64,000 nt of DNA from a bacterium (lineage in GTDB: Bacteria > Chloroflexota > Dormibacteria > Aeolococcales > Bog-877): positions 62,001-126,000 of the forward strand of contig JAKATL010000004.1 in NCBI GenBank assembly GCA_021827985.1, in the 5' to 3' direction. The notes beneath the pieces are model-generated. The model did no database searches. It worked only from the letters and a program-made list of their open reading frames with translations, and was not told the DNA's origin. Within the stretch, counting starts at the first letter, position 1. Each line of letters opens with the position of its first letter. Shown here in pieces: positions 2,254 through 62,468 of the stretch. The translations under genes and the position numbers were made by a program.

Positions 2254-3629
2254 CCCTCGCCATTCCTCCGTCCGAGGACAGGGTGGGCAGCGGTCTGGCA
2301 GCTGCGGAGCAGCGCCTCCTGGCCCAGATCCGGTCGGGGATCGCCGGGAGGCTCATGGGCCGCAGGGAGACGCAGCTGGTGGCTTCCGATCGAGACTGGA
2401 TTCAGGAGCTGGTGGAGCGCGAGGTCCAGGCGTACCACGCCGCGGCGCCTAGACTCCAGGACCCGATTTTGGACTCTGATGGCTACGCCGCCCTGCGCCG
2501 CCGGCTGATGGCTGAGGTAGCCCCCCTCGGCCCGCTCCACGAGCTTCTCACTGACCCACTTGTGGAGGAGGTGATCGTCAACGGACCGGGGGAGGTCCTG
2601 GTGGTCCGGGATGGAGTCCAGCTCGACTCCGGGGTGCGGTTCTCCAGTGAGGAGGCGCTCCTCACCACCGTCCAGCACCTGCTGGGTGCGGGGGCTGCGC
2701 ACCTGGACCGCGCCAATCCCATGGTCACCGCCACGCTGGAGGACGGCTCGAGGCTGAACGCCGTGCTTCCACCGGTCGCCGTTCCGATGGCGGTTACGAT
2801 CCGTCGCCACCAGCTGGGCCGCTTCGCCCGGCTCTCAGATCTGGCCCTAGCCGGCGCGCTGCCATGGGAGCTTCTGCCGCTGCTCCAGGCGGCGGTCAGG
2901 GCCCGCCTCAGCATGGTGGTTTCCGGGAGCACCGGGTCGGGGAAGACCACCATGCTGAGGCTCCTGATCGCCGAGGTCCCCGAGTGGGAGCGGGTCATCA
3001 CGATCGAGGACCAGCGCGAACTTCACGTGCGGACCCCCAGCGGCGGTCGCGCCAACACCATCTCGCTCGAGGCTCGGGACCCCAACACCGAAGGCAGCGG
3101 AGAGGTGAGCATCCAGCAGCTGGTCCGCAATGCGCTCCGTCAGCGGCCCGACCGGATATTCGTGGGCGAGTGTCGCGGGGCCGAAGCTCTGGACGTCATC
3201 GATGCCATGGGCACCGGTCACGACGGCAGCGGCACCACCCTTCACGCCAACAGCGCTCGGGACGCCCTTCTGCGACTGGCGGGCCTGGTCCGTCGCCACC
3301 CCGCCCAAGCGCGCGCCGACCCCAGTGCCGTGGCGCGGGAGATCGCCGCCAAGGTGGACCTGGTGATCCATCTCAGTCGCTTCCGCCGTGCCGACGGCTC
3401 CGACTGCCGGGTGGTCCACTCGGTGGGATTCGTCACCGGCCAGGTGGAGGCCGACCTGCCCGTGGTCGACGAGATCTGCCGCTACCGACGCAGCCGGGGC
3501 GAGTGGCAGTGGCTGGTGGGGCGGCTCGACGACCTCGCCCCAAAGATCGGCGACAAGCTGCAGGCGGCCGGGGTGGACCTGGGATCACTTCCCCTCGGGG
3601 TCCCGATGCACACCTCAGCCCTGCCATGA
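2250..3629 (+). CDS. tadA: TadA/CpaF family pilus secretion ATPase
   Basis: This is a 459-residue hexameric-ATPase family protein that powers Flp pilus assembly at the cytoplasmic face. Visible motifs in order are the N-terminal domain with LTDPLVEEVIVNGP (typical of CpaF), Walker A SGSTGSGKTT at about residues 225-234, the Asp-box region ITIEDQRELH, Walker B RIFVGECRGAEALDVIDAM, and the His-box GSGTTLHANSA. The GTG start at 2250 overlaps the upstream stop (GTGA), with GGAG 12 bases upstream. It is followed directly by tadB and tadC. Family assignment is firm. Confidence 0.93.
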   Translation: MTLAIPPSEDRVGSGLAAAEQRLLAQIRSGIAGRLMGRRETQLVASDRDWIQELVEREVQAYHAAAPRLQDPILDSDGYAALRRRLMAEVAPLGPLHELLTDPLVEEVIVNGPGEVLVVRDGVQLDSGVRFSSEEALLTTVQHLLGAGAAHLDRANPMVTATLEDGSRLNAVLPPVAVPMAVTIRRHQLGRFARLSDLALAGALPWELLPLLQAAVRARLSMVVSGSTGSGKTTMLRLLIAEVPEWERVITIEDQRELHVRTPSGGRANTISLEARDPNTEGSGEVSIQQLVRNALRQRPDRIFVGECRGAEALDVIDAMGTGHDGSGTTLHANSARDALLRLAGLVRRHPAQARADPSAVAREIAAKVDLVIHLSRFRRADGSDCRVVHSVGFVTGQVEADLPVVDEICRYRRSRGEWQWLVGRLDDLAPKIGDKLQAAGVDLGSLPLGVPMHTSALP

Positions 3630-4543
3630 ACCTTCTCCTGCTTCTGGCCGCCTCCGCCGGGATCGCCGGCGCCGGCAGTGCCGCGGTACTCCTCGGGGGG
3701 CCAGTTGCCGGATGGTGGGCGTCCCCGCCCGCGCAGCTGCCCTCCCAGAGAGGGACGGCCAGCAGGGCGAGGCGTTTCCGGCTTCCTTCGCGGGCAGCCG
3801 TCATCTTGTCACTTGCTGCTGGCATTGCCGCCGCGGCTCTCATGTGGCTGGTCCTGGGACTGCTCCTTCCCAGCCTGATGGTGGGGGCAATGGCTGGCGC
3901 CGGTGGGCTGAGCCTGGATGCCGTGCGCTGCCTGCACCGGCGCGGACGAGAGCGCGAGGCGCTGGTAGCGCTGGTCGACCTTCTGGTGCAGCTGCTGGCC
4001 GCGGGGCAGAGTGTCCGCCAAGCGCTCGAGGCCCTCTCCAAGAGCGGTCCTGGCCTGCTGCGACCCGAGCTGCAGGCGATCGTCCGGAGGCAGCGGCAGG
4101 TCTCCCTGGAACAGGCCCTCTGGGAGGCACAGCTCCGGATCAGCCAGCCCCTCTTCACCCTGACCGCCACAGCTCTGGCGGTCGGAAGCCGATCTGGGGG
4201 CCGGCTCACTCCCCTGCTGGACGAGCTTTCCCGCTCCGCCCACCAGCTCGAGGCAGTGCAGCGTCAGCTGCGGGCGGAGCAGGCTCAGGGGCGACTCGGG
4301 GCATTGGTGATTGCGGCCATGCCCATCTGCCTCCTGGTGGTCCTGCGGGTGGTCAACCCCGGCTACCTCTCCCCCTACGCCTCGATCTCGGGCCAGCTCC
4401 TGCTCTCGCTCCTTCTCGGCCTGATCGTGGCCGGCTACCTGTGGATGCTGTGGATCCTGCGCCTACCGGAGCCGGAGCTGGGCGTTCTCCCCCCGGTCGC
4501 GACCGCCCGAGGCGAGGACGAGCCAGCGGAGCACCCAGTTTGA
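3626..4543 (+). CDS. tadB: TadB-like pilus inner-membrane platform protein
   Basis: This is a 305-residue type II secretion F-domain protein. It has an N-terminal membrane segment, a pair of hydrophobic helices at about residues 52-90, a cytoplasmic F domain (LVQLLAAGQSVRQALEAL, then a SGGRLTPLLDELS segment) and two C-terminal membrane helices. TadB and TadC form the platform that the TadA ATPase acts on. The ATG overlaps the tadA stop (ATGA). The order tadA-tadB-tadC supports the call, since the TadB and TadC families resemble one another. Confidence 0.85.
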   Translation: MNLLLLLAASAGIAGAGSAAVLLGGPVAGWWASPPAQLPSQRGTASRARRFRLPSRAAVILSLAAGIAAAALMWLVLGLLLPSLMVGAMAGAGGLSLDAVRCLHRRGREREALVALVDLLVQLLAAGQSVRQALEALSKSGPGLLRPELQAIVRRQRQVSLEQALWEAQLRISQPLFTLTATALAVGSRSGGRLTPLLDELSRSAHQLEAVQRQLRAEQAQGRLGALVIAAMPICLLVVLRVVNPGYLSPYASISGQLLLSLLLGLIVAGYLWMLWILRLPEPELGVLPPVATARGEDEPAEHPV

Positions 4544-5439
4544 AGGCCGGGATCTCGCCGGCCTCCCTGCTCGTGACAGACTGGCCCCTACTGGTGGGGG
4601 CGGCGGCCGTCGCCGTGCTGGCTGCGTTGGCCGGCTGGACTTGGCCTCGCAGGCGAACCTGGGGGGAGCGTGTCGCCGCCGCCAGGAGGCGACGGCTGCA
4701 GGCTCCCGGCTCGGCGGACCCACCCCGCGGGTGGCTGGCCATGGCCGGGGGCCGCCTGCCCCGCGACCTGCGGGCCCGGGTGCGACAGTCCTTGGAGCGA
4801 TCGGGCTACGAGCTGGGTGCGGAGGAGCTGCTCGGCCGCCTGATCGCAGCCGAGGCCATCGCGCTGGTTCTGGCGACTCTCCTGGTTCTTACCATGTCAT
4901 TGCCGGTGCAGCTGTTGGCGGTGGTCGCTGTGCCGCCACTGATCGTGGCGGGGGCGTTGCAGCGCTCGGCCCGGCGGCGGCGAGCCTCGATCTTGGGGGA
5001 GCTGCCGCTCTTGGTGGACCTTATGGCCCTGGAGCAGGCGGGGGGTGGAGTGGGCGCCCGGCGGGCCATGGAACTGGTGGTGGCCAGGAGCGCTGGCCCG
5101 GCCGCTGCCATCATCAGGGACTGCCTCACTCGCTCCGCGACCCCTGGGAGTCCACCGCTTGACGGCGAGTTGGAGCGGGCCGCTGCACAATATCGGCTCC
5201 CCGCGGTCGCGGCCCTGGCGGCGGTGATAAGGATCCAGCGTGCCGAGGGGATTGCCACCGGCGCCCCCCTGGGCAACCTGGCTCGTGGGCTCCGAGACCG
5301 GCAGCGCGACCGTGTCACCGAGGAGGGCCGGCGGGCGCTGGTGGCCATGCTCCTGCCGGTCGCGGCCTGCATCCTCCTCCCGTTCATCCTGATCGTCCTC
5401 TTCCCGGCCATCTCCCAGTTTGGGAAGGCGTTCTCGTGA
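4540..5439 (+). CDS. tadC: TadC-like pilus inner-membrane platform protein
   Basis: This is a 299-residue F-domain membrane protein and the second platform component of the Tad machine. Helices are seen near the N-terminus (LLVGAAAVAVLAALAGW), in the middle (LIAAEAIALVLATLLVLTM) and at the C-terminus (ILLPFILIVLFPAISQF), around an F domain with LPLLVDLMALEQAGGGVGAR. The chosen start is a TTG at 4540 inside the preceding stop (TTGA), with CGGAG eight bases upstream; the frame is open much further upstream but only across the tadB gene. Confidence 0.82.
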   Translation: MKAGISPASLLVTDWPLLVGAAAVAVLAALAGWTWPRRRTWGERVAAARRRRLQAPGSADPPRGWLAMAGGRLPRDLRARVRQSLERSGYELGAEELLGRLIAAEAIALVLATLLVLTMSLPVQLLAVVAVPPLIVAGALQRSARRRRASILGELPLLVDLMALEQAGGGVGARRAMELVVARSAGPAAAIIRDCLTRSATPGSPPLDGELERAAAQYRLPAVAALAAVIRIQRAEGIATGAPLGNLARGLRDRQRDRVTEEGRRALVAMLLPVAACILLPFILIVLFPAISQFGKAFS

Positions 5440-6101
5440 GCGCCGGGCGGAGGGGGCGGAGTTCCGGCCAGGCCATGGTAGAGATGGCCATCGGGACGGG
5501 CATCTTCCTGCTGGCGGTCCTTGGGGCAGCCCAGCTGGGCGTCTCCGCCCTGAGCCAGGAGGGGATCCAGAGCGCCGCCCTCAGCGGCGCCCGGGCTGCC
5601 TCCGCGGCCGTGGTCGCCGGGGACCCGCTGCAGCGGCTGCAGGAGGGCCAGTCGGCCGCCCTGGCCTCGCTGGCCACAACCCGACTGGGAATGGACGAAC
5701 TCCTGCCCTGTCCCGGAGGAAGCGCTTTTGGCTGCGGGGTCGGAATGGACTGTGCCCTCTACCTCCACGGCCGTGCGCTTGCCGGGACCGAGGAGCCCTG
5801 TGGGGTCGCCAACTCCGCCAACGGCTATGGGCCGGCACCACGCGATCTGGACGGTTCCCAGAACCCTGCCTGCAGCGACCAGGACTGCTTCGGCGCCGCG
5901 CTCTCCATGCGCCCGTGCGCCCAGCCGGGCCTACCGGGCCGACTCAGGGTCTGTATCGCCTACACATCCTGGCCCCCCCGAGCGGTCGACATCTGGATCA
6001 CGGGGACCGTGCGCACCCTGCTTCCCTGGTTCAGCGGGGCTGGCCTTGACCTGCAGACCGTGAGCGCCAGACTCCGCCTGCAGGTCGAGGGGCTGGCTTG
6101 A
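5436..6101 (+). CDS. TadE-like minor pilin or pseudopilin
   Basis: This is a 221-residue secreted or membrane-anchored protein. The N-terminus has the prepilin-like pattern SSGQAMVEMAIGTGIFLLAV: a glycine before a hydrophobic helix with a glutamate at the +5 position, as in Tad minor pilins. The remaining part contains about nine cysteines, unusual for TadE and suggesting disulfides outside the membrane. The GTG start overlaps the tadC stop by four bases. It is the first of three consecutive proteins with similar N-termini. Confidence 0.7.
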   Translation: MSAGRRGRSSGQAMVEMAIGTGIFLLAVLGAAQLGVSALSQEGIQSAALSGARAASAAVVAGDPLQRLQEGQSAALASLATTRLGMDELLPCPGGSAFGCGVGMDCALYLHGRALAGTEEPCGVANSANGYGPAPRDLDGSQNPACSDQDCFGAALSMRPCAQPGLPGRLRVCIAYTSWPPRAVDIWITGTVRTLLPWFSGAGLDLQTVSARLRLQVEGLA

Positions 6102-6658
6102 GAGCTCCGGGTTCGGGTCGGGGCCAGGCGTTGGTGGAGCTTGCCCTGGTTCTTCCTGTCCTGCTCCTCCTCGGGCTGGCCGCGGCCGCCATAGTGCAGG
6201 TGGCCAGGACCCAGCTTGCCATGTCCACGGCCGCCTCGGCCGCAGCGCTGGTGGCGGCGCGCGCTCCCGACGCGGCTGCCGCCTGCACCCAGTCCCGGCT
6301 GCAGTTGGAGACCTCCATCTCGGACAGCGGCGGACTGATCCCCGCCACGCTCACCGACCACCTCGACGGTCGGTGCGCCGGGCCCCTGCCGCTCCCCGCC
6401 GCGGCCGTTCCGAATTCGTACTTCATCTGGCTGGGGCTGGGTGGTGCCCAGGACACCTTCTGCCGCCGGGGCACGCCAGTCCGCGGCTCCCTGACGGACG
6501 GTGACGTGGTGGTCTCTCTCGCATACCGTCCCAACCTCTCCTGGCTGCCGCTGGTGGGCAGCTGGCTGAGCCCGGTGCTTCAAACGCAGTCGGTCCAGAA
6601 GGTCGACCCCTTTAGAAGCCGCGACCCGAGCCAGGATCCCACCGGTGACAACTGCTGA
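6098..6658 (+). CDS. TadE-like pilus assembly protein
   Basis: This is a 186-residue protein with a short basic N-terminus, then GRGQALVELALVLPVLLLLGL, the classic TadE/TadG motif (Gln-Ala-x-Val-Glu-x-Ala before a membrane helix). The C-terminal part is extracytoplasmic, with few cysteines and no recognisable catalytic residues. The start is a TTG within the preceding stop (TTGA). The gene ends 14 bases inside the next one. TadE proteins are processed pseudopilins needed for pilus formation. Confidence 0.75.
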   Translation: MRAPGSGRGQALVELALVLPVLLLLGLAAAAIVQVARTQLAMSTAASAAALVAARAPDAAAACTQSRLQLETSISDSGGLIPATLTDHLDGRCAGPLPLPAAAVPNSYFIWLGLGGAQDTFCRRGTPVRGSLTDGDVVVSLAYRPNLSWLPLVGSWLSPVLQTQSVQKVDPFRSRDPSQDPTGDNC

Positions 6659-7217
6659 CCGCCGGGCAAGACAGAGGGGTCAAATCCTGCCCCTCTTCGC
6701 CCTCCTCCTGGCGATACTGCTCCTGCCGGTGGCAGCCCTTGCCGTGGACGGAGGGCTGATCCTGAGCCGCCACGCGGAGCTGGTCGGGGAGGCCCAGGCC
6801 GCCGCCGAGGCGGGGTCGCAAGCGGTGGACCAGACCGCTCTCTCCCAAAACGGGACGTTCCAGCTCTGTGTCGCCGCGGACGGAGGTCCGGACTGCGGTA
6901 ATGGGGTGGGCAACGTACTGGACGTAGTCAACGAGGTCATCAGTTCGTCAGCTGGGGCGGGTGTCAACCGGTGCACCCAGGTGACCGCGATCCCAGCCCA
7001 GTTCGCGGGCGCCAGCGGTTGCGACATGACGGTTCTAGCCCCCTGCGGCGCGGACGGACCGCCGCTCGGGGTCGAGGTGACGATCTGGGCGCCCGCGGAG
7101 ATCCCTCTGGCCGGCATTGGCCCGCTGGGCACCCTCCGGCTGCGGGCGGAGGCCACATCCTGGCTCGCCCACGGGATCGGAGCTATGGCGAATCCGCCGG
7201 TGCTACCCCGATGCTGA
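6645..7217 (+). CDS. TadG-like (putative Flp pilus assembly) protein
   Basis: This is a 190-residue protein with RQRGQILPLFALLLAILLLPVAALAVDGG near the N-terminus, the pattern of the Flp-assembly TadG N-domain: Arg-Gly-Gln before a long helix ending in an Asp-Gly. The remainder is a short extracytoplasmic region with paired cysteines; the von Willebrand domain found in large TadG proteins is absent, so it is a short version. The GTG start at 6645 overlaps the previous gene by 14 bases. The next gene starts 7 bases before its stop. Confidence 0.7.
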   Translation: MTTADRRARQRGQILPLFALLLAILLLPVAALAVDGGLILSRHAELVGEAQAAAEAGSQAVDQTALSQNGTFQLCVAADGGPDCGNGVGNVLDVVNEVISSSAGAGVNRCTQVTAIPAQFAGASGCDMTVLAPCGADGPPLGVEVTIWAPAEIPLAGIGPLGTLRLRAEATSWLAHGIGAMANPPVLPRC

Positions 7218-8260
7218 CTCCTTGGCCCCGCCTTCCTCTGGCCGCAACCGAGGCACCGCCGCCACCGGAATACTCCGCGCCGGCCACCCTGCCCTGGAGC
7301 TCCGGGAATGCGAGTGCGATCAGCCCGCCCCTCCACCCCCTGCTGGTGGTCGCTGATCCACCCCCAGTGACCGCGGAGCGGCCCTCTCGCCCTGTGGCGT
7401 CGCTGAGGTCGGCGCTTCGCCTCGTCCGCCCCGGAGGTGGCTCACAGCCCAGCCGCTCGGAGCCGGGGTCACCGCGGACGGGTAGGCTCCCCGAGTTGGT
7501 GGTCGTCCTGGGGGCGCGAGGCGGGGTGGGAGCCTCCAGCCTGGCTCTAGACCTGGCCTGGCGCGGTGCCCGAGCCTACAGAAATCCGGTACTGCTGATC
7601 GACGCGGACGAGGAGCATCCTGCCCTCGACCTCCTGCTCGGAGCCGCAACCGTGGAGGAGGACCTCTGGCCGTCGGCGCGGCTCGACCACATCCTGCTGC
7701 GACTGGCAGACCTGGCCAGCGGTGCCGCCACCCTGGAGCGGATGCTTTGGAGCGGACCCTCGGATGGATTCCACGCCCTCCTCGGCCTGACCCCACACCG
7801 GGAGCCCACCCCGGTCGGGGTGGAGCACCTCGACTACCTCTACCGTTACCACCTCCGCCCCGGCTTCCGGACCGTTCTGGTGGACGGCGGGGCGGCGGGC
7901 CAGGAGCTTTCCACCTCCGCCCGCTTCTACGCCTCCATAGCCGACTGGCTGGTGGTGGTCACCCACGAGGGCGACACCTGCCTTAGGAGCTGCCTCGGGT
8001 TGCTCGAGCAGGTCCTGGCCCTTCCTGGCCGGCGACAGGTCGCGGTGGTGGTGACCGGGACGGGTGGGAGCGGGGGTGACCCGGCCCTGCGCCGGTTCGA
8101 GCGGGCGGCGGCCGTGCGCCTGCGTCGACCCTGGGTCCCGACCACGGCCCAGTTGGCCACTCACCGCCATCGTCCGCTCGCCGAAGTGGATCGGAAGGTC
8201 CTGGCGGCCGTCGACCAGCTGTTGTGCGCCGTCTCGGTTCCTGGTGGCATCCCTGAGTAG
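7211..8260 (+). CDS. Second TadZ/CpaE-like ATPase with proline-rich N-terminus
   Basis: This is a 349-residue ParA/MinD-superfamily protein. About 95 residues of low-complexity, proline- and serine-rich sequence precede the ATPase domain. The P-loop reads VLGARGGVGASSLALDLA, again without the signature lysines (Arg and Ala in their place), and is followed by LLIDADEEHPALDLLLG. It differs clearly from the copy at 1390, so the operon holds two divergent TadZ-like proteins. The N-terminal tail might hold a polar-localisation or receiver-like role, but no receiver domain can be recognised. The ATG at 7211 overlaps the upstream gene by seven bases. Confidence 0.7.
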   Translation: MLTPWPRLPLAATEAPPPPEYSAPATLPWSSGNASAISPPLHPLLVVADPPPVTAERPSRPVASLRSALRLVRPGGGSQPSRSEPGSPRTGRLPELVVVLGARGGVGASSLALDLAWRGARAYRNPVLLIDADEEHPALDLLLGAATVEEDLWPSARLDHILLRLADLASGAATLERMLWSGPSDGFHALLGLTPHREPTPVGVEHLDYLYRYHLRPGFRTVLVDGGAAGQELSTSARFYASIADWLVVVTHEGDTCLRSCLGLLEQVLALPGRRQVAVVVTGTGGSGGDPALRRFERAAAVRLRRPWVPTTAQLATHRHRPLAEVDRKVLAAVDQLLCAVSVPGGIPE

Positions 8261-10624: not shown

Positions 10625-11290
10625 ATGCCCAGCGAGCCACACCACGATTGGGATTCGTATTGGCCCCAGCTCGTCCGGCGGCCCGGCGCCCAGAGGGTGG
10701 GGGATGCCGAACGAGAACAGGTGACGGCTGAGCTCGCCGACCACCACGTCGCCGGCCGTCTGACCACCGAGGAGTTGCGCACACGCTGTGAGCTGGCCCT
10801 GGCGGCGAGAACCCGGGCGGACCTGGACCGGCTCACCGCCGACCTGCCCCGGAACCAAGCCGGAACCGAGGTGCTGCCCTGGCTGGCCCGTCCCCCGGGT
10901 CCTTTCCCCGGGACACGGTTCGCAGGCTTCTGGGCCCGGGCGGGCGGGTTCTGGCTGGACAGCGTGGCCTTGGTCGCCGCGAATGCGGCATTGAGCATCC
11001 CCGCCGGCGGCGCCCACCTTGGGCTACTTCTCTGGCTGTCCCCGGTGGCCTACTTCGTGGGCTTCTGGGGCTCAGCTGGCAGGACCCCGGGCATGTGGAT
11101 CGCCGGGGTCCGGGTGGTTCGCGAGGAGGACGGAGGCCGGCTGGGCTTCCGGCGCAGCCTGCTGCGGCTCGTCGGCTACCTGGTGGACATGACCACCGCC
11201 GGTGCCGGATTCGTCTGGGCAGCGGTGGACCGCCGCCGCCAAGGCTGGCACGACAAGATCGCCGGTAGCCTGGTTCTTAGATCGCGCTGA
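10625..11290 (+). CDS. DUF1707 and RDD domain membrane protein
   Basis: This is a 221-residue protein. Residues about 24-75 form a DUF1707 (SHOCT-like) domain with RVGDAEREQVTAELADHHVAG and LTTEELRTRCELALAARTR. Residues about 97-221 form an RDD domain: FAGFWARAGGFWLDSVALV (Arg and Asp in helix 1), GRTPGMWIAGVRVV, and a final helix. RDD proteins are small membrane proteins of mostly unknown role. Its last 219 bases are also read on the other strand by the end of the ECF S-component gene, so two genes converge and overlap. Confidence 0.8.
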   Translation: MPSEPHHDWDSYWPQLVRRPGAQRVGDAEREQVTAELADHHVAGRLTTEELRTRCELALAARTRADLDRLTADLPRNQAGTEVLPWLARPPGPFPGTRFAGFWARAGGFWLDSVALVAANAALSIPAGGAHLGLLLWLSPVAYFVGFWGSAGRTPGMWIAGVRVVREEDGGRLGFRRSLLRLVGYLVDMTTAGAGFVWAAVDRRRQGWHDKIAGSLVLRSR

Positions 11291-12052
11291 GGTCGCCGGA
11301 CCACTGGACGGCACGGGGTCATCCCATTCCACTCGGAAACGGCGTCCGAGCCGCCGAAGCCCGACCAGGAGGGGTATCCCCAGTAGTCCGACCATGAGTG
11401 CGTTGCCCCCGGCCCGGAAGGAGTCATAGGCGAGGGAGGTGATGAGGTAGTAGCGCCCAAAGCGACCGAGGGCCGCCAGCGGAGCCAGCCCCGGATTCCA
11501 GCCCAGCTGCGGTGAGCCGGCGAAGAAGGTCCAGTTCCATACGTCCATCACAACCCCGTAGGCGTAGCCGGCCGCCAGCCCGTAGGCGCCAAGCACAAGG
11601 ACATCGGTCCACCCCGGCCGCCGCCCCCTTCGCCACCCTCCCACCAGCCCAGCTCCCAGCCCCACCCACCCCAGCGCGAACAGCTCATAGGGAAGCCACG
11701 GGCCCAGCCCTCCGGTGACCAGGGCCGAGGTGAGCAGGGAGCCAGCCCCGAGCAGGAAGCCGAACTCCGGCCCAAGGACATAGCCGCCGCAGAGCACCAG
11801 GAGGAAGATGGGGCTGAAGCCCCCGATCCCCGTGACCAGGGCTGCGCGCAGGGCCGCGTCCGCGGCACTGAGGGCGGCGAGCAGGGCCAGGCCCCGGGAG
11901 TCCAGCCTGCGGGCCCCCACCTCGAAGGCGGCGAGAGCACCGAGCGAACCGAGGGCCACCAGCATGGCTGGAGTTGCCGCTGGCAGGGACGCCCCCAGGA
12001 AGGGCCAGAGGAAGAGGCAAAGCCCGGCCAGCGAGACCAGAATCAGGATCAT
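11072..12052 (-). CDS. ECF transporter S component, predicted cobalamin-binding
   Basis: This is a 326-residue integral membrane protein; residues 1 to about 245 hold several hydrophobic helices (for example PIFLLVLCGGYVLGPEFGFL and a YELFALGWVGLGAGLVGGW segment). It overlaps the upstream A-component gene by four bases and is the last gene of a B12-riboswitch operon, which makes it the substrate-binding S component by context, CbrT-like. S proteins are too variable to assign from sequence alone. The C-terminal 80 residues are polar, Pro/Ala/His-rich and run antisense through the RDD gene, so they may be a non-functional read-through tail. Confidence 0.7.
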   Translation of the reverse strand: MILILVSLAGLCLFLWPFLGASLPAATPAMLVALGSLGALAAFEVGARRLDSRGLALLAALSAADAALRAALVTGIGGFSPIFLLVLCGGYVLGPEFGFLLGAGSLLTSALVTGGLGPWLPYELFALGWVGLGAGLVGGWRRGRRPGWTDVLVLGAYGLAAGYAYGVVMDVWNWTFFAGSPQLGWNPGLAPLAALGRFGRYYLITSLAYDSFRAGGNALMVGLLGIPLLVGLRRLGRRFRVEWDDPVPSSGPATSARSKNQATGDLVVPALAAAVHRCPDESGTGGGHVHQVADEPQQAAPEAQPASVLLANHPDPGDPHARGPAS

Positions 12053-13368
12053 CGGGGAGGCCCCGAGACCACCTCACCCTCCGCCAGCTCCAGGACCCGG
12101 TCCGCAGCCGCGGCGGCGAACTCGTGGTCGTTGGTGGCGATCAGGATGGCCGTGCCCCGGCTCGCGAGGTGGTCGAGGGCGGTGAAGAGCGCCCTCCTGG
12201 CCGCCGGATCCGCCCCCCGGGTGGGCTCGTCCAGGAGGACCAGCTCGGGGTCGCCCACCAGGATGGCCGCCAACGCTGCCCGCTGGCGTTCCCCGGCGCT
12301 GAGGTCCCGGGGGTCCAGGTCACTGAGCGTCTGCAGGTTGAAGCGCTCCAGCACCGGGGCGGCCGGCGCCGCGAGGCGCAGCCAGCGCCGGGTCTGCTCC
12401 ACCTCCAGCCGAACGGTCCTCTGGTGGAGTAGCGCCCCTGGCTCCTGGGGCAGGTAGGCGACGCGGCGGGCTTCTACTCGGACCTGGCCCGCCAGCGGGG
12501 GCAGGAGTCTTGCCAGGGTTCGCAGCAGGGTGGTCTTCCCCGACCCGTTGGCCCCGGTCAATCCAACCACCTCACCGCCGCGCAGGGCCAAATCGCCGGC
12601 CCGCAGCAGGCGCCGACCGCGTCCCACCTCCAGGCTGAGTGTCCGTAGCCGCACCGGGCCATCCTTGGCGCCACGGTTGGCGCGCGGTGGCCAGAGCCCC
12701 GCGGGAGCCGATCCTGGTCCGAGAGCAAGTCGCTGGTCGGCTGCCGCGGCCAGCCTCTCGGGGCGCTGCTCGGCCACCACCGTAGCCCGTCCGTCCTCCC
12801 GGAAGTCGCCGAGCCGCTCAAGCAGAAGGGTGACACCCTGGGGATCCAGCTGAGAGGTGGGCTCATCCAGCACCAGTAGCTCCGGCTCCATCGCCAGGCA
12901 GCCGGCCAGGGCGACCCGCTGCCGCTCGCCCCCCGAGAGGTCGGCCAGCTGGCGCTGCCGGAGGTGGGCCACCCCCATCGCCTCCAGCGCGGTGTCCACG
13001 CGGCGGGCCACCGCTTCAGGAGTGATCCCGAGACCGGCTGGGCCGAACGCCACCTCCTGGGTCACCACCGGCATGACCAGCTGCTGCTCCGGTTCCTGGA
13101 ACAGCAGCGCCACCCGCCGTGAGAGATGCCTTGGGCGCGCCTCCCGCAGGGAGCCACCCAGGATGGACGCCTCCCCGCTTACGCGCCCGCCGTAGAAGTG
13201 GGGCACCAGGCCGTTGAGGGCTCGGAGCAGGGTGCTCTTCCCACTCCCGGACATGCCGGTCAGAAGGGTCACACCCGGGCGGATCTCCAGACTGACCGGC
13301 CCTACGGCCCATTCTTCGCTGTCCGGGTAGGCGTAGGCGAAGCTCCGGAACTCGGCCAGGGGGGTCAT
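12049..13368 (-). CDS. ECF transporter A component, double ABC ATPase
   Basis: This 439-residue protein contains two fused ABC ATPase domains. Domain 1: Walker A GMSGSGKST (about 38-46), Q-loop LLFQEPEQQLVM, signature LSGGERQRVAL, Walker B LLVLDEPTSQLD. Domain 2: Walker A GANGSGKTT, signature LSAGERQRAAL, Walker B LVLLDEPTRGAD. The FQEPEQQL sequence is typical of energy-coupling-factor ATPases, which drive vitamin import with a T and an S subunit. The start overlaps the T-component stop by four bases and its end overlaps the S-component start by four. Confidence 0.9.
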   Translation of the reverse strand: MTPLAEFRSFAYAYPDSEEWAVGPVSLEIRPGVTLLTGMSGSGKSTLLRALNGLVPHFYGGRVSGEASILGGSLREARPRHLSRRVALLFQEPEQQLVMPVVTQEVAFGPAGLGITPEAVARRVDTALEAMGVAHLRQRQLADLSGGERQRVALAGCLAMEPELLVLDEPTSQLDPQGVTLLLERLGDFREDGRATVVAEQRPERLAAAADQRLALGPGSAPAGLWPPRANRGAKDGPVRLRTLSLEVGRGRRLLRAGDLALRGGEVVGLTGANGSGKTTLLRTLARLLPPLAGQVRVEARRVAYLPQEPGALLHQRTVRLEVEQTRRWLRLAAPAAPVLERFNLQTLSDLDPRDLSAGERQRAALAAILVGDPELVLLDEPTRGADPAARRALFTALDHLASRGTAILIATNDHEFAAAAADRVLELAEGEVVSGPPR

Positions 13369-14180
13369 CGGAACGCGGCCGGCACCAGGAGCGCGGCCGC
13401 CGCCAGGCTGGGGAGCAGGTCGATGGCGGGCAGCTGGAGGGTGGGGTACGGTTGCCAGACCCCCAGGGCGCCGGTGACCAGGGAGATGGCCGCCAGGACG
13501 ATGGAGGTGGCCGCGGCGGAGAGCGTCACCCGGTCACCGATGGAGGTCGCCGGCGGTGCCATCCGGGTCCTGGGACCGCTGCCCAACCCACGCGCCTCCA
13601 TCGCCTCGGCCAGGAGGACTGAGCCCTCTATGGCGGTCAGCAGGGCCGGCACGGCCACGGCCCGCCAGGAGCGAGGCCCGCGAGGCCTCCATCCTCGCAT
13701 CGCCTGGGCCTCCCGAACTTGGGCGAAGGCGTCGCTCAGGCGCGGGAGGAGGGTGACCGAGGCGCTCAGGGCGGCGCTGGTGCGCCGCAGCTGGGGCGGG
13801 AGGCTGTCCAGCAGCTCCTGTCCCTCGAGCCCCTGGCTGAGCACGGCCGCGGCCAGCAGCGCCGCCATCAACCCCACCGCGATGTCGGCACCGTACACCA
13901 GACCCTCCAGGGTCATGGGGCCGCCCACGGCCGGGAGCAGCGGTGGGAGTGAGATCAGCACCGTGGCGCCTGTGTGGCTCAGGACGAAGTTGAGGAGGAT
14001 CGCCGATCCCCCGGCGACCAGGATCCAGTAGGGTCGGCGCCGGTGTGCCCCGCTCCTCCGCCGCGCCAGGTAGACGGCGGTCACCGCCCCCAGAACCATG
14101 ATCCGATACAGCGGATCCTCCGTTCCCAGGGAGAGGAGCAGCACCGCCGCCACCCAGGCGAGGAGAGACCGGGCGCGCAT
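13365..14180 (-). CDS. ECF transporter T component (CbiQ-like)
   Basis: This is a 271-residue membrane protein with five to six helices. It carries the two ECF-T coupling motifs, each with an Ala-Arg-Gly-like core: REAQAMRGW at about residue 160 and AMEARGLGSG at about 196. These helices contact the ATPases in known ECF transporters. The gene lies six bases after the lipoprotein stop and overlaps the ATPase gene by four bases, in the same riboswitch-controlled transcript. Confidence 0.87.
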   Translation of the reverse strand: MRARSLLAWVAAVLLLSLGTEDPLYRIMVLGAVTAVYLARRRSGAHRRRPYWILVAGGSAILLNFVLSHTGATVLISLPPLLPAVGGPMTLEGLVYGADIAVGLMAALLAAAVLSQGLEGQELLDSLPPQLRRTSAALSASVTLLPRLSDAFAQVREAQAMRGWRPRGPRSWRAVAVPALLTAIEGSVLLAEAMEARGLGSGPRTRMAPPATSIGDRVTLSAAATSIVLAAISLVTGALGVWQPYPTLQLPAIDLLPSLAAAALLVPAAFR

Positions 14181-14186
14181 TTCGCC

Positions 14187-14663
14187 TCAGCCGGCGAGGG
14201 GCGGCCGCGGTGGCGGTGGGGGGGAGCCTGTGCCGAAGTGCCACCCGACCGCCTGCCCGGCCTTGAAGCTGAGATCGGAGATCCCCTTGGTGGCGGCCTT
14301 CCACGGCCCCTTCCCCGTCCAGGTGTAGAGCGCCCAATAGGGCTGGCCTGAGGCGAAGCAGGAGGTGTAGGAGAGGGGCGTCTGATCGATCTGGCAGACA
14401 GCGTCGCCAAAGCTGAAGTGCTGCAGGGCGAACTCGATTCCGCTCCGGCGCATCAGTGCCTCACCGCTGAGGCTACCTTTGGGGAGCTGCACGCAGCTGT
14501 CGACCACCTTGCCGGTCTGCAACTCCACCACCACGTCGGCCTGCCCGGTGCGGCCGCAAGCGGTGTGATTGGGGCCGGTCCGGGCGCTGGCCCCACAACC
14601 TGCCACCAGGATCCCCAGAAACACCGGGACCAGAGTCGCGCTGGCCCAACGAGACGAGACCAT
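14187..14663 (-). CDS. Transcobalamin-like (DUF4430) lipoprotein
   Basis: This is a 158-residue lipoprotein: an N-terminal hydrophobic segment ends in LVAGC with the lipid-attachment cysteine at about residue 23. The mature part has VVVELQTGKVVDSC, an ALMRRSGIEF helix, YTSCFASGQPYWALYTW and a closing GQAVGWHFGTG, the order seen in DUF4430 domains, which are related to the C-terminal domain of transcobalamin and intrinsic factor. Four cysteines could form two disulfides. The ATG at 14663 has GGAGG eight bases upstream. As the first gene behind a cobalamin riboswitch and before the ECF genes, it probably captures B12 or a precursor outside the membrane. Confidence 0.75.
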   Translation of the reverse strand: MVSSRWASATLVPVFLGILVAGCGASARTGPNHTACGRTGQADVVVELQTGKVVDSCVQLPKGSLSGEALMRRSGIEFALQHFSFGDAVCQIDQTPLSYTSCFASGQPYWALYTWTGKGPWKAATKGISDLSFKAGQAVGWHFGTGSPPPPPRPPLAG

Positions 14664-14765
14664 CGCCGCATCCTCCCGACGGCAATGTGGAGACCCCAAC
14701 GCGAGAGCTGGGCCTGCCGTCGAGGGCCGTCCTTCCCGTGGCGCGCGGGGGTACGCATCACCCCC

Positions 14766-14936
14766 GGGGCCGGTCTCCTGGCTCGCGGATCGGCGCCCTT
14801 GGCCCGCCTTCCCGGGAATCACCCGGTGGCCGCTGGACCTGGACTCCCCGCTCACAGTTGCGCGACAGCTCCGGACTTGGGACGGATCCCGCACCGGATT
14901 CCCATTCGCCTCGGGGGCTATTCGGTTGTCCCGGCC
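14766..14936 (-). promoter_or_regulatory. Cobalamin (B12) riboswitch
   Basis: Read on the minus strand, the region contains GCCACCGGGTGATTCCCGGG, then GGGAAGGC (14813-14806), and further on the B12 box AGCCAGGAGACCGGCC (14783-14768), which matches the family consensus closely. Downstream, an 8-bp stem (14722-14715 with 14684-14677) ends directly against the GGGAGGA ribosome site of the lipoprotein gene, a plausible expression platform acting on translation. The 5' limit is approximate; a possible -10 (TATCAT) lies at 14942-14937. Controlled genes are the lipoprotein and the ECF T, A and S components. Confidence 0.88.
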
Positions 14937-34181: not shown

Positions 34182-34307
34182 CCCTGATCCGGTCCGGGGA
34201 GTGCGCCCGCTCCACCTGGTAGAGTCCAGGGCGGCGATGGGGCCCGCCTGCGCCGGCAACCGCCGGATGATGGCTTCTACCTCTTTCCCGACTGGCAGGA
34301 GGTGGTT

Positions 34308-36032
34308 GTGGGGGCAGTCCCCGAAGCGTCGCCCGGATCTTCGCTCACCGGGTGGAGCCAGGCCCGAGATCGGGCTATGCAGGTCCTGGACCGGTTGGCT
34401 GAGATGGCCGCGAGGCGAGGTGACAGCGCCGGGGAGGAGGGGCTCCGCGCGGCCCGGGAGCGGCTGGGTGCCGGGCGGCTGAACCTGGCCGTACTGGGCG
34501 AGTTCAAGCGCGGCAAGAGCACGCTGATAAACCGTCTGCTGGGCGAGCCGGTGCTGCCGGTGGGAGTGGTACCCATGACCTCCCTCCCGATCCTGGTCGA
34601 GCATGGGCCACGGCCGGAGGTCGAGATCGAGCTGACCTCCGGTGAGCGGCTCCGGCTAGGGCCGGGGGATCTTGCGGACTACGCCACCGAGGTGGGGAAT
34701 CCGGAGAATCGCCGCCAGGTGACGCGGGTGGTCGTACGCCACCCGGCCCCGATCCTGGCGGAGGGGGTGGTCCTGGTCGACACCCCCGGGATCGGGTCGG
34801 CGCATGATCACAACACGGAGGTGGCGCACCGGGCGCTGGCCGAGGCCGACGCTGCCGTCTTCGTCCTCTCGGTCGACAGCCCAGCCAGCCGGGCTGAGTT
34901 GGACTTCCTCCGCTCGGTGCGGGAGCGGGTCGGGCGCCTCATCTATGTCTTGAACAAAGCGGACCTGCTCAGTGCTCCCGAGCTCACCGAGGCTGCCCAG
35001 TTCGTGCGTCGGATGCTTAGCTCCCCCGCTGACGGCCCGCCGGCCCAGCTCTTCCCGCTCTCGGCCCGGGAGGGGGATGCCGGCTTCGCAGGCTTCCGCG
35101 CCCAGCTGGAGTCTGCCCTCACCGGTGGGCGGGCATCGCTGCTCCTGGAGCGGATGCGGGGCCTCAGCCGGGAGGCGCTGGCGCAGGAGCGCCGGATGGT
35201 GGCGCTTCAGCGGTCGGCCATGCGTCTTTCCAGCCAGGAGGCTCGCGAGCGTGAGAGAGGGCTGGAGCTCCTGCTCGGCGAGGTGCGCCGGACCGCGACC
35301 GACGTGGAGCAGCTTCTGCGCGCCGACGTGGCCCGGCTGGTGCCGGAGGTGGCCCAGCCGGCCATCGAGGAGTTTCGGGCGGCGGCGCTGGGGACGCTGT
35401 CCACACGGGTAGTCGGTCTGGTGTCGTCAGGTATCTCACCCCGCCAGATGGAGGAGCAGGTCGGCGCACAGCTCGTCGGCCTGGTCCGCGACTGGATGGA
35501 GCGCATCGAGGGGGAGGTGGCCCGGGCGCTGGAACCGGTCGCTGATCGCCACTCCCAGAGGGCGAATCAGATGCTGGCCACCTCCTCCGCCCAGATAGCC
35601 GCACTCTTCGAGGTCGACCTCCCCCCGGTTTCCCTTAGGGAGGGGATAGGGGCGGCCAGCTCGCGCTTGGTGCTGCTCGAGCATCAGCAGCTGGCCCTGG
35701 AGGCAGCCGCTTCCAGCCTGCGCCGGCTTGCGCCCGGCCGTCTGGGCCGGCGACTCGTGGCACGGGAGGCGATCTCTCGGATGGAGGAGGCGGTCGACCG
35801 CCACTGCGGCCGGCTGCGCTACGACATCTCCACGCGGCTGGACCGCAAGGAGTCGGAGTGGCGCCAGCAGCTCCGTGAGGCGCTGGAGCGTCTGGAGGAA
35901 ACCGTCCGGCGGGCGTTCGAGCTGGCGGAGACGGCGCGCTCCGCGGGGGCCGAAGCCTGGTCCCGGACGGTGGCCGACCTCGACCAGAGGGATGGTGAAG
36001 TCGAGCTCTTGGAGCGGAAGTTGGCGTCCTGA
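34308..36032 (+). CDS. Bacterial dynamin-like GTPase
   Basis: This is a 574-residue protein with a dynamin-type GTPase domain: G1 GEFKRGKST, G2 around VPMTSLPI, G3 DTPGIGS, G4 NKADLL. The rest is long helical sequence rich in Arg/Glu (about 270-570), fitting the neck and trunk helices of bacterial dynamin-like proteins that remodel or protect membranes. A marked membrane-insertion helix is not obvious. The GTG at 34308 was chosen because AGGAGG lies five bases upstream; the GTG two codons earlier would overlap that site. It stands alone; the next gene has its own promoter. Confidence 0.85.
   Translation: MGAVPEASPGSSLTGWSQARDRAMQVLDRLAEMAARRGDSAGEEGLRAARERLGAGRLNLAVLGEFKRGKSTLINRLLGEPVLPVGVVPMTSLPILVEHGPRPEVEIELTSGERLRLGPGDLADYATEVGNPENRRQVTRVVVRHPAPILAEGVVLVDTPGIGSAHDHNTEVAHRALAEADAAVFVLSVDSPASRAELDFLRSVRERVGRLIYVLNKADLLSAPELTEAAQFVRRMLSSPADGPPAQLFPLSAREGDAGFAGFRAQLESALTGGRASLLLERMRGLSREALAQERRMVALQRSAMRLSSQEARERERGLELLLGEVRRTATDVEQLLRADVARLVPEVAQPAIEEFRAAALGTLSTRVVGLVSSGISPRQMEEQVGAQLVGLVRDWMERIEGEVARALEPVADRHSQRANQMLATSSAQIAALFEVDLPPVSLREGIGAASSRLVLLEHQQLALEAAASSLRRLAPGRLGRRLVAREAISRMEEAVDRHCGRLRYDISTRLDRKESEWRQQLREALERLEETVRRAFELAETARSAGAEAWSRTVADLDQRDGEVELLERKLAS

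Positions 36033-61010: not shown

Positions 61011-62468
<1,458 letters not shown>

Follow-up and report, generated by a model that had tools for sequence, protein, structure and literature searches.

We analysed a stretch of 64,000 nt (positions 62,001 to 126,000 of contig JAKATL010000004.1, assembly GCA_021827985.1; hereafter the window) from a 2.83-Mb, 93% complete metagenome-assembled genome (MAG) of the class Dormibacteria. On its minus strand, a cobalamin (B12) riboswitch precedes the genes of a small lipoprotein and of an energy-coupling factor (ECF) transporter. We consider it likely that this is a dedicated B12 import operon of a genome that uses but does not make B12, in which the lipoprotein, an equivalent of the beta half of transcobalamin, captures cobalamin for a CbrT-like S component. 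In humans, transcobalamin carries B12 in the blood. The operon comprises the following parts:

14751-14928, minus strand: cobalamin (B12) riboswitch aptamer, RF00174
14672-14726, minus strand: candidate expression platform, a hairpin that could sequester the lipoprotein gene's Shine-Dalgarno site
14187-14663, minus strand: lipoprotein of 158 amino acids (aa) with signal peptide and lipobox (VAG-C23), beta-grasp transcobalamin-beta-like domain and Pro-rich tail
14223-14564, minus strand: beta-grasp domain of the lipoprotein (residues 34-147), from predicted structure, Foldseek and profile comparison
13365-14180, minus strand: EcfT, the CbiQ-type transmembrane coupling subunit, 271 aa
12049-13368, minus strand: EcfA-A', a fused double ATPase in a single open reading frame (ORF), 439 aa
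11072-12052, minus strand: ECF S component, with a conserved core at 11288-12052

The first-pass annotation of the window had recognised the riboswitch by its B12 box and core, and the covariance-model search gives this claim full support: the aptamer reaches 92 bits compared to a gathering score of 31.5 (E 1.6e-21), the whole model (1-189) is covered, and the window's own copy is the only RF00174 match in the genome. The riboswitch ends 87 nt before the start of the lipoprotein ORF, which is preceded by the Shine-Dalgarno sequence GGGAGG. No intrinsic terminator was found in the leader between aptamer and start codon. The consensus fold of 10 leaders contains the hairpin listed above with 12 pairs, 96% of cells paired and one compensatory pair, while slid controls reach 27-63%; the window leader, when folded on its own for minimum energy, does not show it. 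Translational control via this Shine-Dalgarno-pairing hairpin is thus suggested, and likely, from the leader sequences only.

With regard to the transporter, the T, double-A and S genes that had been assigned downstream of the lipoprotein were all recovered. EcfT matches PF02361 with 39.3 bits (cut-off 25) and carries an AMEARG coupling motif. EcfA-A' matches PF00005 twice and TIGR01166 (cbiO) over the cut-off, and contains two P-loops (Walker A), two signature motifs and two Walker B motifs. The window's S protein stays below the cut-off of PF12822 (E 0.0013), a family that is matched by 12/13 members of the S family (best E 9.4e-9). Among PDB entries, the S family profile is closest to 6FNP_A, i.e., the B12 S component CbrT (E 1.2e-4), followed by FolT (0.012). 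Judged by these profiles, the S component is related to CbrT, a proven B12 S component (PMC5997447), where the relation is distant and not one of orthology. The T and A-A' genes as well as the A-A' and S genes overlap by 4 nt, and 6 nt separate the lipoprotein gene from T. All parts of a dedicated ECF module, i.e., EcfT, both ATPase domains and the S component, are encoded in one operon.

Only the extent of the S gene had to be corrected: its conserved core is 11288-12052, and the last ~71 codons (11072-11287) run antisense through a neighbouring gene:

10625-11290, plus strand: RDD-family gene, overlapped by the C-terminal end of the S ORF

The 71-codon antisense extension of the S frame is open in all genus members checked.

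For the mature domain of the lipoprotein, AlphaFold produced from seven close sequences a model with a predicted local distance difference test score (pLDDT) of 70.5 and a predicted template modelling score (pTM) of 0.65. The model shows strands at residues 8-15 and 20-26, a helix at 34-41 and strands at 75-82 and 105-113, i.e., the core elements of a beta-grasp fold. Foldseek ranks transcobalamin (7qbe twice, 4zrp) and haptocorrin (4kki) as the top four PDB matches with probabilities of 0.96-0.98. The mature domain performed better than an earlier model including the signal peptide (pLDDT 62), for which transcobalamin was merely one of many beta-grasp matches.

This is complemented by profile-profile comparisons. 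The lipoprotein family aligns with two true DUF4430 proteins of the same class over 66 columns at an E-value of 9.5e-6, which 200 column-shuffled controls did not attain (best 0.014). With hhalign, an actinobacterial SCO2322-like profile gave no signal against two DUF4430 sequences, such that the relation to DUF4430 is based on the profile of the Dormibacterota proteins. The lipoprotein profile also matches Streptomyces SCO2322-like proteins (E 1e-9) with four common cysteines; Cys36/57/90/102 of the beta-grasp domain are shared with actinobacterial SCO2322-like proteins, and 18/22 lipoprotein family members match the NCBIfam family SCO2322_fam (best E 8e-7). A transcobalamin-type beta-grasp fold of the lipoprotein is therefore likely in the light of the model, but not proven. 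The transcobalamin-like domain postulated by the first-pass annotation is thereby supported, at modest fold E-values and below curated thresholds. Two observations had been named beforehand as refuting the interpretation, i.e., a riboswitch without covariance support and a lipoprotein fold that is not transcobalamin-like; both were checked, and neither was made.

Within the class, whose four families we label f1 (the window's own), f2 (of the same order as f1), f3 and f4, homologues of the lipoprotein are present in 76/110 genomes. A riboswitch is located upstream on the same strand for 16/16 copies in f1 (at a distance of 88-103 nt), 23/32 in f4 (62-185 nt), 11/19 in f2 (1257-2404 nt) and 12/13 in f3 (1189-1323 nt), where the chance of such a placement is ~0.0009 per copy. 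In most loci of sufficient length, the lipoprotein homologue is followed by T, AA' and S. In two genomes without the lipoprotein (G022 and G023, loci L089 and L088), a true DUF4430 gene occupies the same slot behind a sub-threshold cobalamin riboswitch, together with a gene for a DUF6580 membrane protein; this context hints at DUF6580 being a B12 S-type transporter. Viral contigs yielded no relatives, and a plasmid search with DUF4430 found none either.

Individual loci show further arrangements. In L056 (G081) and L065 (G073), the riboswitch lies between two tandem copies of the lipoprotein gene, the upstream one of which is outside its control. In L050 (G108, 3885-7663), the riboswitch is followed by lipoprotein, S and then CobU; the S branch is long and neither T nor AA' was found nearby, so S is possibly a solitary component or a user of a shared ECF module. 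In L066 (G102, 2712-3834), an orphan lipoprotein paralogue is convergent with a BtuR/CobO adenosyltransferase gene.

The longer gap between riboswitch and beta gene in f2 and f3 is filled by the gene of a secreted alpha/alpha-toroid protein, which is related to squalene cyclases and to the NCBIfam family SCO2321_fam and shows a Pro/Thr-rich stalk and a C-terminal membrane helix. Searching with a toroid profile yields E-values below 1e-27 only in f2 and f3. For f1 and f4, we observe background only (<=39 bits, mostly inside long cyclase-like ORFs), and no toroid partner was found in the window genome, where the best match (37 bits) is within a 913-aa ORF read as squalene cyclase. We do not take the cyclase-like f1 matches for a hidden toroid partner, given that they are weak, partial and inside long ORFs. 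The membrane anchors differ correspondingly. A lipobox-like motif is found in 8/8 f1 and 23/25 f4 beta proteins but in 1/16 of f2 and f3 combined, while a C-terminal helix anchor, according to a simple hydropathy rule, is present in 15/16 beta proteins of f2/f3 and in none of f1/f4. That is, absence of the toroid goes along with the lipid anchor.

The toroid is not restricted to the class. Streptomyces sp. SAT1 shows the order riboswitch (41.8 bits), toroid protein, SCO2322-like protein, T, A and S. Its toroid protein bears a beta domain at the N-terminus, i.e., beta and toroid also occur fused, in reversed order compared to transcobalamin. In Embleya sp. NBC_00896 (L093, 8977-9732, minus strand), a SCO2322-like beta protein is encoded on the opposite strand from a toroid gene, and no ECF genes were found in that stretch. 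The presence of the toroid in Streptomyces makes its loss in f1 and f4 the simpler reading. A tree of T, AA' and S rejects neither a grouping with a single loss (f1+f4) nor one with two losses; the tree of S only favours f1+f4 with 91% support in the Shimodaira-Hasegawa-like approximate likelihood ratio test (SH-aLRT). As far as can be predicted from sequence, the systems of f2, f3 and Streptomyces are a transcobalamin that is split into two membrane-anchored halves.

These distributions also bear on the reading of the lipoprotein as a small secreted protein of unrelated origin, placed behind a riboswitch by accident and similar to a beta-grasp domain by chance. While the missing Pfam match and the weak fold E-values would fit, such a protein explains neither the conservation with the operon in 76/110 genomes nor the outcome of the shuffled-profile control, nor the Streptomyces beta domain fused to a toroid, nor the DUF4430 protein in the same slot of G022 and G023. 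We thus regard it as the least probable of the alternatives.

The gene content of the window genome is informative about the substrate. It encodes two PduO-type adenosyltransferases and one B12-binding mutase subunit. We found no CobU in it, only CysG- and RsmI-type but no corrin methylases, and no FecCD-type permease (PF01032), i.e., no indication of a BtuCDF importer, while 13/14 control genomes were positive. These gene presences and absences mark the genome as that of a cobalamin user which does not produce the vitamin and lacks any further recognised route for its import. In other genomes of the class, CobU or BtuR is encoded near lipoprotein genes.

Alternatively, the operon might import cobalt or a corrinoid precursor such as cobinamide. 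The CbiQ/CbiO-type names of the transporter parts and the CobU gene near the operon's relative in G108 could be read this way, and cobalt transporters are riboswitch-controlled as well. However, the S component is not CbiM-like but closest to CbrT, and neither cobalt nor cobinamide could be converted to cobalamin by standard routes, because the genome lacks corrin methylases and CobU. A substrate other than cobalamin is thus very improbable.

The mechanism we propose for the import of cobalamin is as follows. At low cobalamin, the riboswitch would leave the lipoprotein gene translatable. The lipoprotein, as the equivalent of the transcobalamin beta half, would be held by its lipid on the outside of the cytoplasmic membrane, next to the transporter, where it may bind cobalamin and pass it to the CbrT-like S component. 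ATP-driven EcfT-A-A' would then toggle S such that cobalamin is released inside. The ancestral form, presumably kept in f2/f3 and Streptomyces, would have the transcobalamin clamp completed by an alpha/alpha-toroid protein with a membrane anchor of its own. The lineage of the window would have lost the toroid gene, leaving the beta half to work alone or perhaps jointly with S.

Experiments on human transcobalamin are in line with this scheme. Its beta domain alone was crystallised with cobalamin and holds it until extensive washing (PMC5599065), which makes a lone beta domain a plausible cobalamin binder. Furthermore, separately made alpha and beta parts join only when cobalamin is present, i.e., the f2/f3 operons encode naturally what the separated human halves did in vitro (PMC5599065). 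We tentatively put forward, at somewhat less than even confidence, a more far-reaching reading: a naturally split transcobalamin that closes on B12 above a CbrT-like S component, plus a derived toroid-free form in which the lipid-anchored beta half alone hands B12 to S. Such a system would amount to an ECF importer equipped with a substrate-binding protein of its own, and it would be an extant relative of the lineage that gave rise to the animal B12 carriers.

Several observations weigh against a cobalamin-capturing lipoprotein in a B12 scavenger. The affinity of the lone beta domain for cobalamin is lower than that of whole transcobalamin (PMC5599065), CbrT and like S components bind B12 at nanomolar affinity without a helper (PMC5997447), and for the lipoprotein itself both B12 binding and hand-over to S are inferred. 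At 93% completeness of the MAG, genes counted as absent could be merely missing. The lipoprotein reaches no Pfam family, and neither it nor 22 members of its family match DUF4430 (PF14478, cut-off 23.8 bits) up to an E-value of 1. The window protein scores 12.5 bits for SCO2322_fam (NF040672, cut-off 85), and sequence searches of the PDB with the lipoprotein, the 22-member profile or the DUF4430 protein returned nothing useful. The transcobalamin and haptocorrin matches of the fold have E-values of only 0.01-0.03, with staphylococcal beta-grasp proteins ranking next. Finally, the model's pLDDT of 70.5 stems from seven close sequences only and is lowest (<50) for residues 58-64, i.e., where one would expect the beta-hairpin insert that follows the helix and contacts the ligand.

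Some of these points would also suit a lipoprotein that serves S as docking or lid subunit rather than holding B12, with the beta-grasp likeness left over after the loss of the toroid. The toroid half, a main ligand-binding wall in transcobalamin, is absent from the window genome, both transcobalamin halves contribute to binding (PMC5599065), and S components alone suffice elsewhere (PMC5997447). On the other hand, isolated transcobalamin beta does bind cobalamin (PMC5599065), and the lipoprotein domain is under purifying selection (dN/dS, i.e., the ratio of nonsynonymous to synonymous substitution rates, of 0.11-0.21 for the window protein compared to four genus relatives) with conserved Cys, Trp and Gly positions. 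In addition, f4 genomes keep extra lipoprotein copies away from the transporter, one of them beside BtuR, which is hard to explain for a pure accessory of S. We thus consider the docking or lid function unlikely and retain the capture of cobalamin.

By definition, the S component of an ECF transporter binds the vitamin itself. With an extra capture protein conserved across the class and in Streptomyces, a further binding step may exist in some ECF systems, comparable to that of BtuF for BtuCD. The version in two anchored parts resembles the separate halves of transcobalamin, which assemble on B12 in vitro, and bears on the origin of animal B12 carriers. The operon further offers a suggestion of how a widespread, uncultured phylum can subsist on B12 that it scavenges. 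Finally, the toroid-free lipoprotein is a small expressible protein for asking whether half a transcobalamin suffices.

Apart from the operon, the window contains a fluoride riboswitch match (34224-34286, plus strand; 36 bits vs. a cut-off of 34) directly ahead of a 576-aa ORF (34302-36032), which looks like a dynamin-type GTPase and not like a known fluoride exporter.

In the open-access literature, which most subscription papers are outside of, we found no paper on SCO2322-2325, SCO2321 only in an unrelated paper, and no paper joining DUF4430 to a cobalamin riboswitch. The general idea of transcobalamin-like B12 scavengers beside CbiO/CbiQ is already known since 2007, from Burroughs et al. 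(PMC1796856). As far as found, the toroid-free lipoprotein variant, the two-phylum split-transcobalamin/ECF system and its riboswitch coupling are new, with no earlier description.

Burroughs et al. describe bacterial transcobalamin-like domains that are often fused to a toroid, encoded with CbiO and CbiQ and predicted to be B12 scavengers (PMC1796856). The window resembles these systems in its secreted beta-grasp domain, its CbiO/CbiQ operon, a host without B12 biosynthesis, as also seen for the transcobalamin-like SLBB clade, and a toroid partner in its relatives. It differs from them and from DUF4430 by scoring below the Pfam threshold and by lacking in its genome the toroid partner that is common, if not universal, in this clade; in its relatives, the toroid is a separate protein. 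Their paper makes no mention of riboswitch control, nor, in the parts read, of members from Dormibacterota or Streptomyces (PMC1796856). With the SCO2321/SCO2322 families (NCBIfam NF053823, NF040672), the Dormibacterota share the order riboswitch-toroid-beta-T-AA'-S (as in Streptomyces sp. SAT1), the four cysteines and the profile match at E 1e-9, while the window lacks the toroid gene, has a lipid anchor instead of a C-terminal helix and scores far below the cut-off. Compared to human transcobalamin beta (PDB 5NP4, 5NO0), the predicted beta-grasp is alike at ~15-19% identity, but the window protein is lipid-anchored and without alpha domain. BtuG and BtuH of Bacteroidetes are also lipid-anchored extracellular B12 capture proteins; by description, they are set apart as different proteins that serve an outer-membrane route (PMC8941943 and general knowledge). 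Finally, ECF-CbrT (PDB 6FNP) is an ECF-type B12 importer too, but its ECF module serves several S components and no capture protein is known for it, whereas the window encodes a dedicated four-gene operon.

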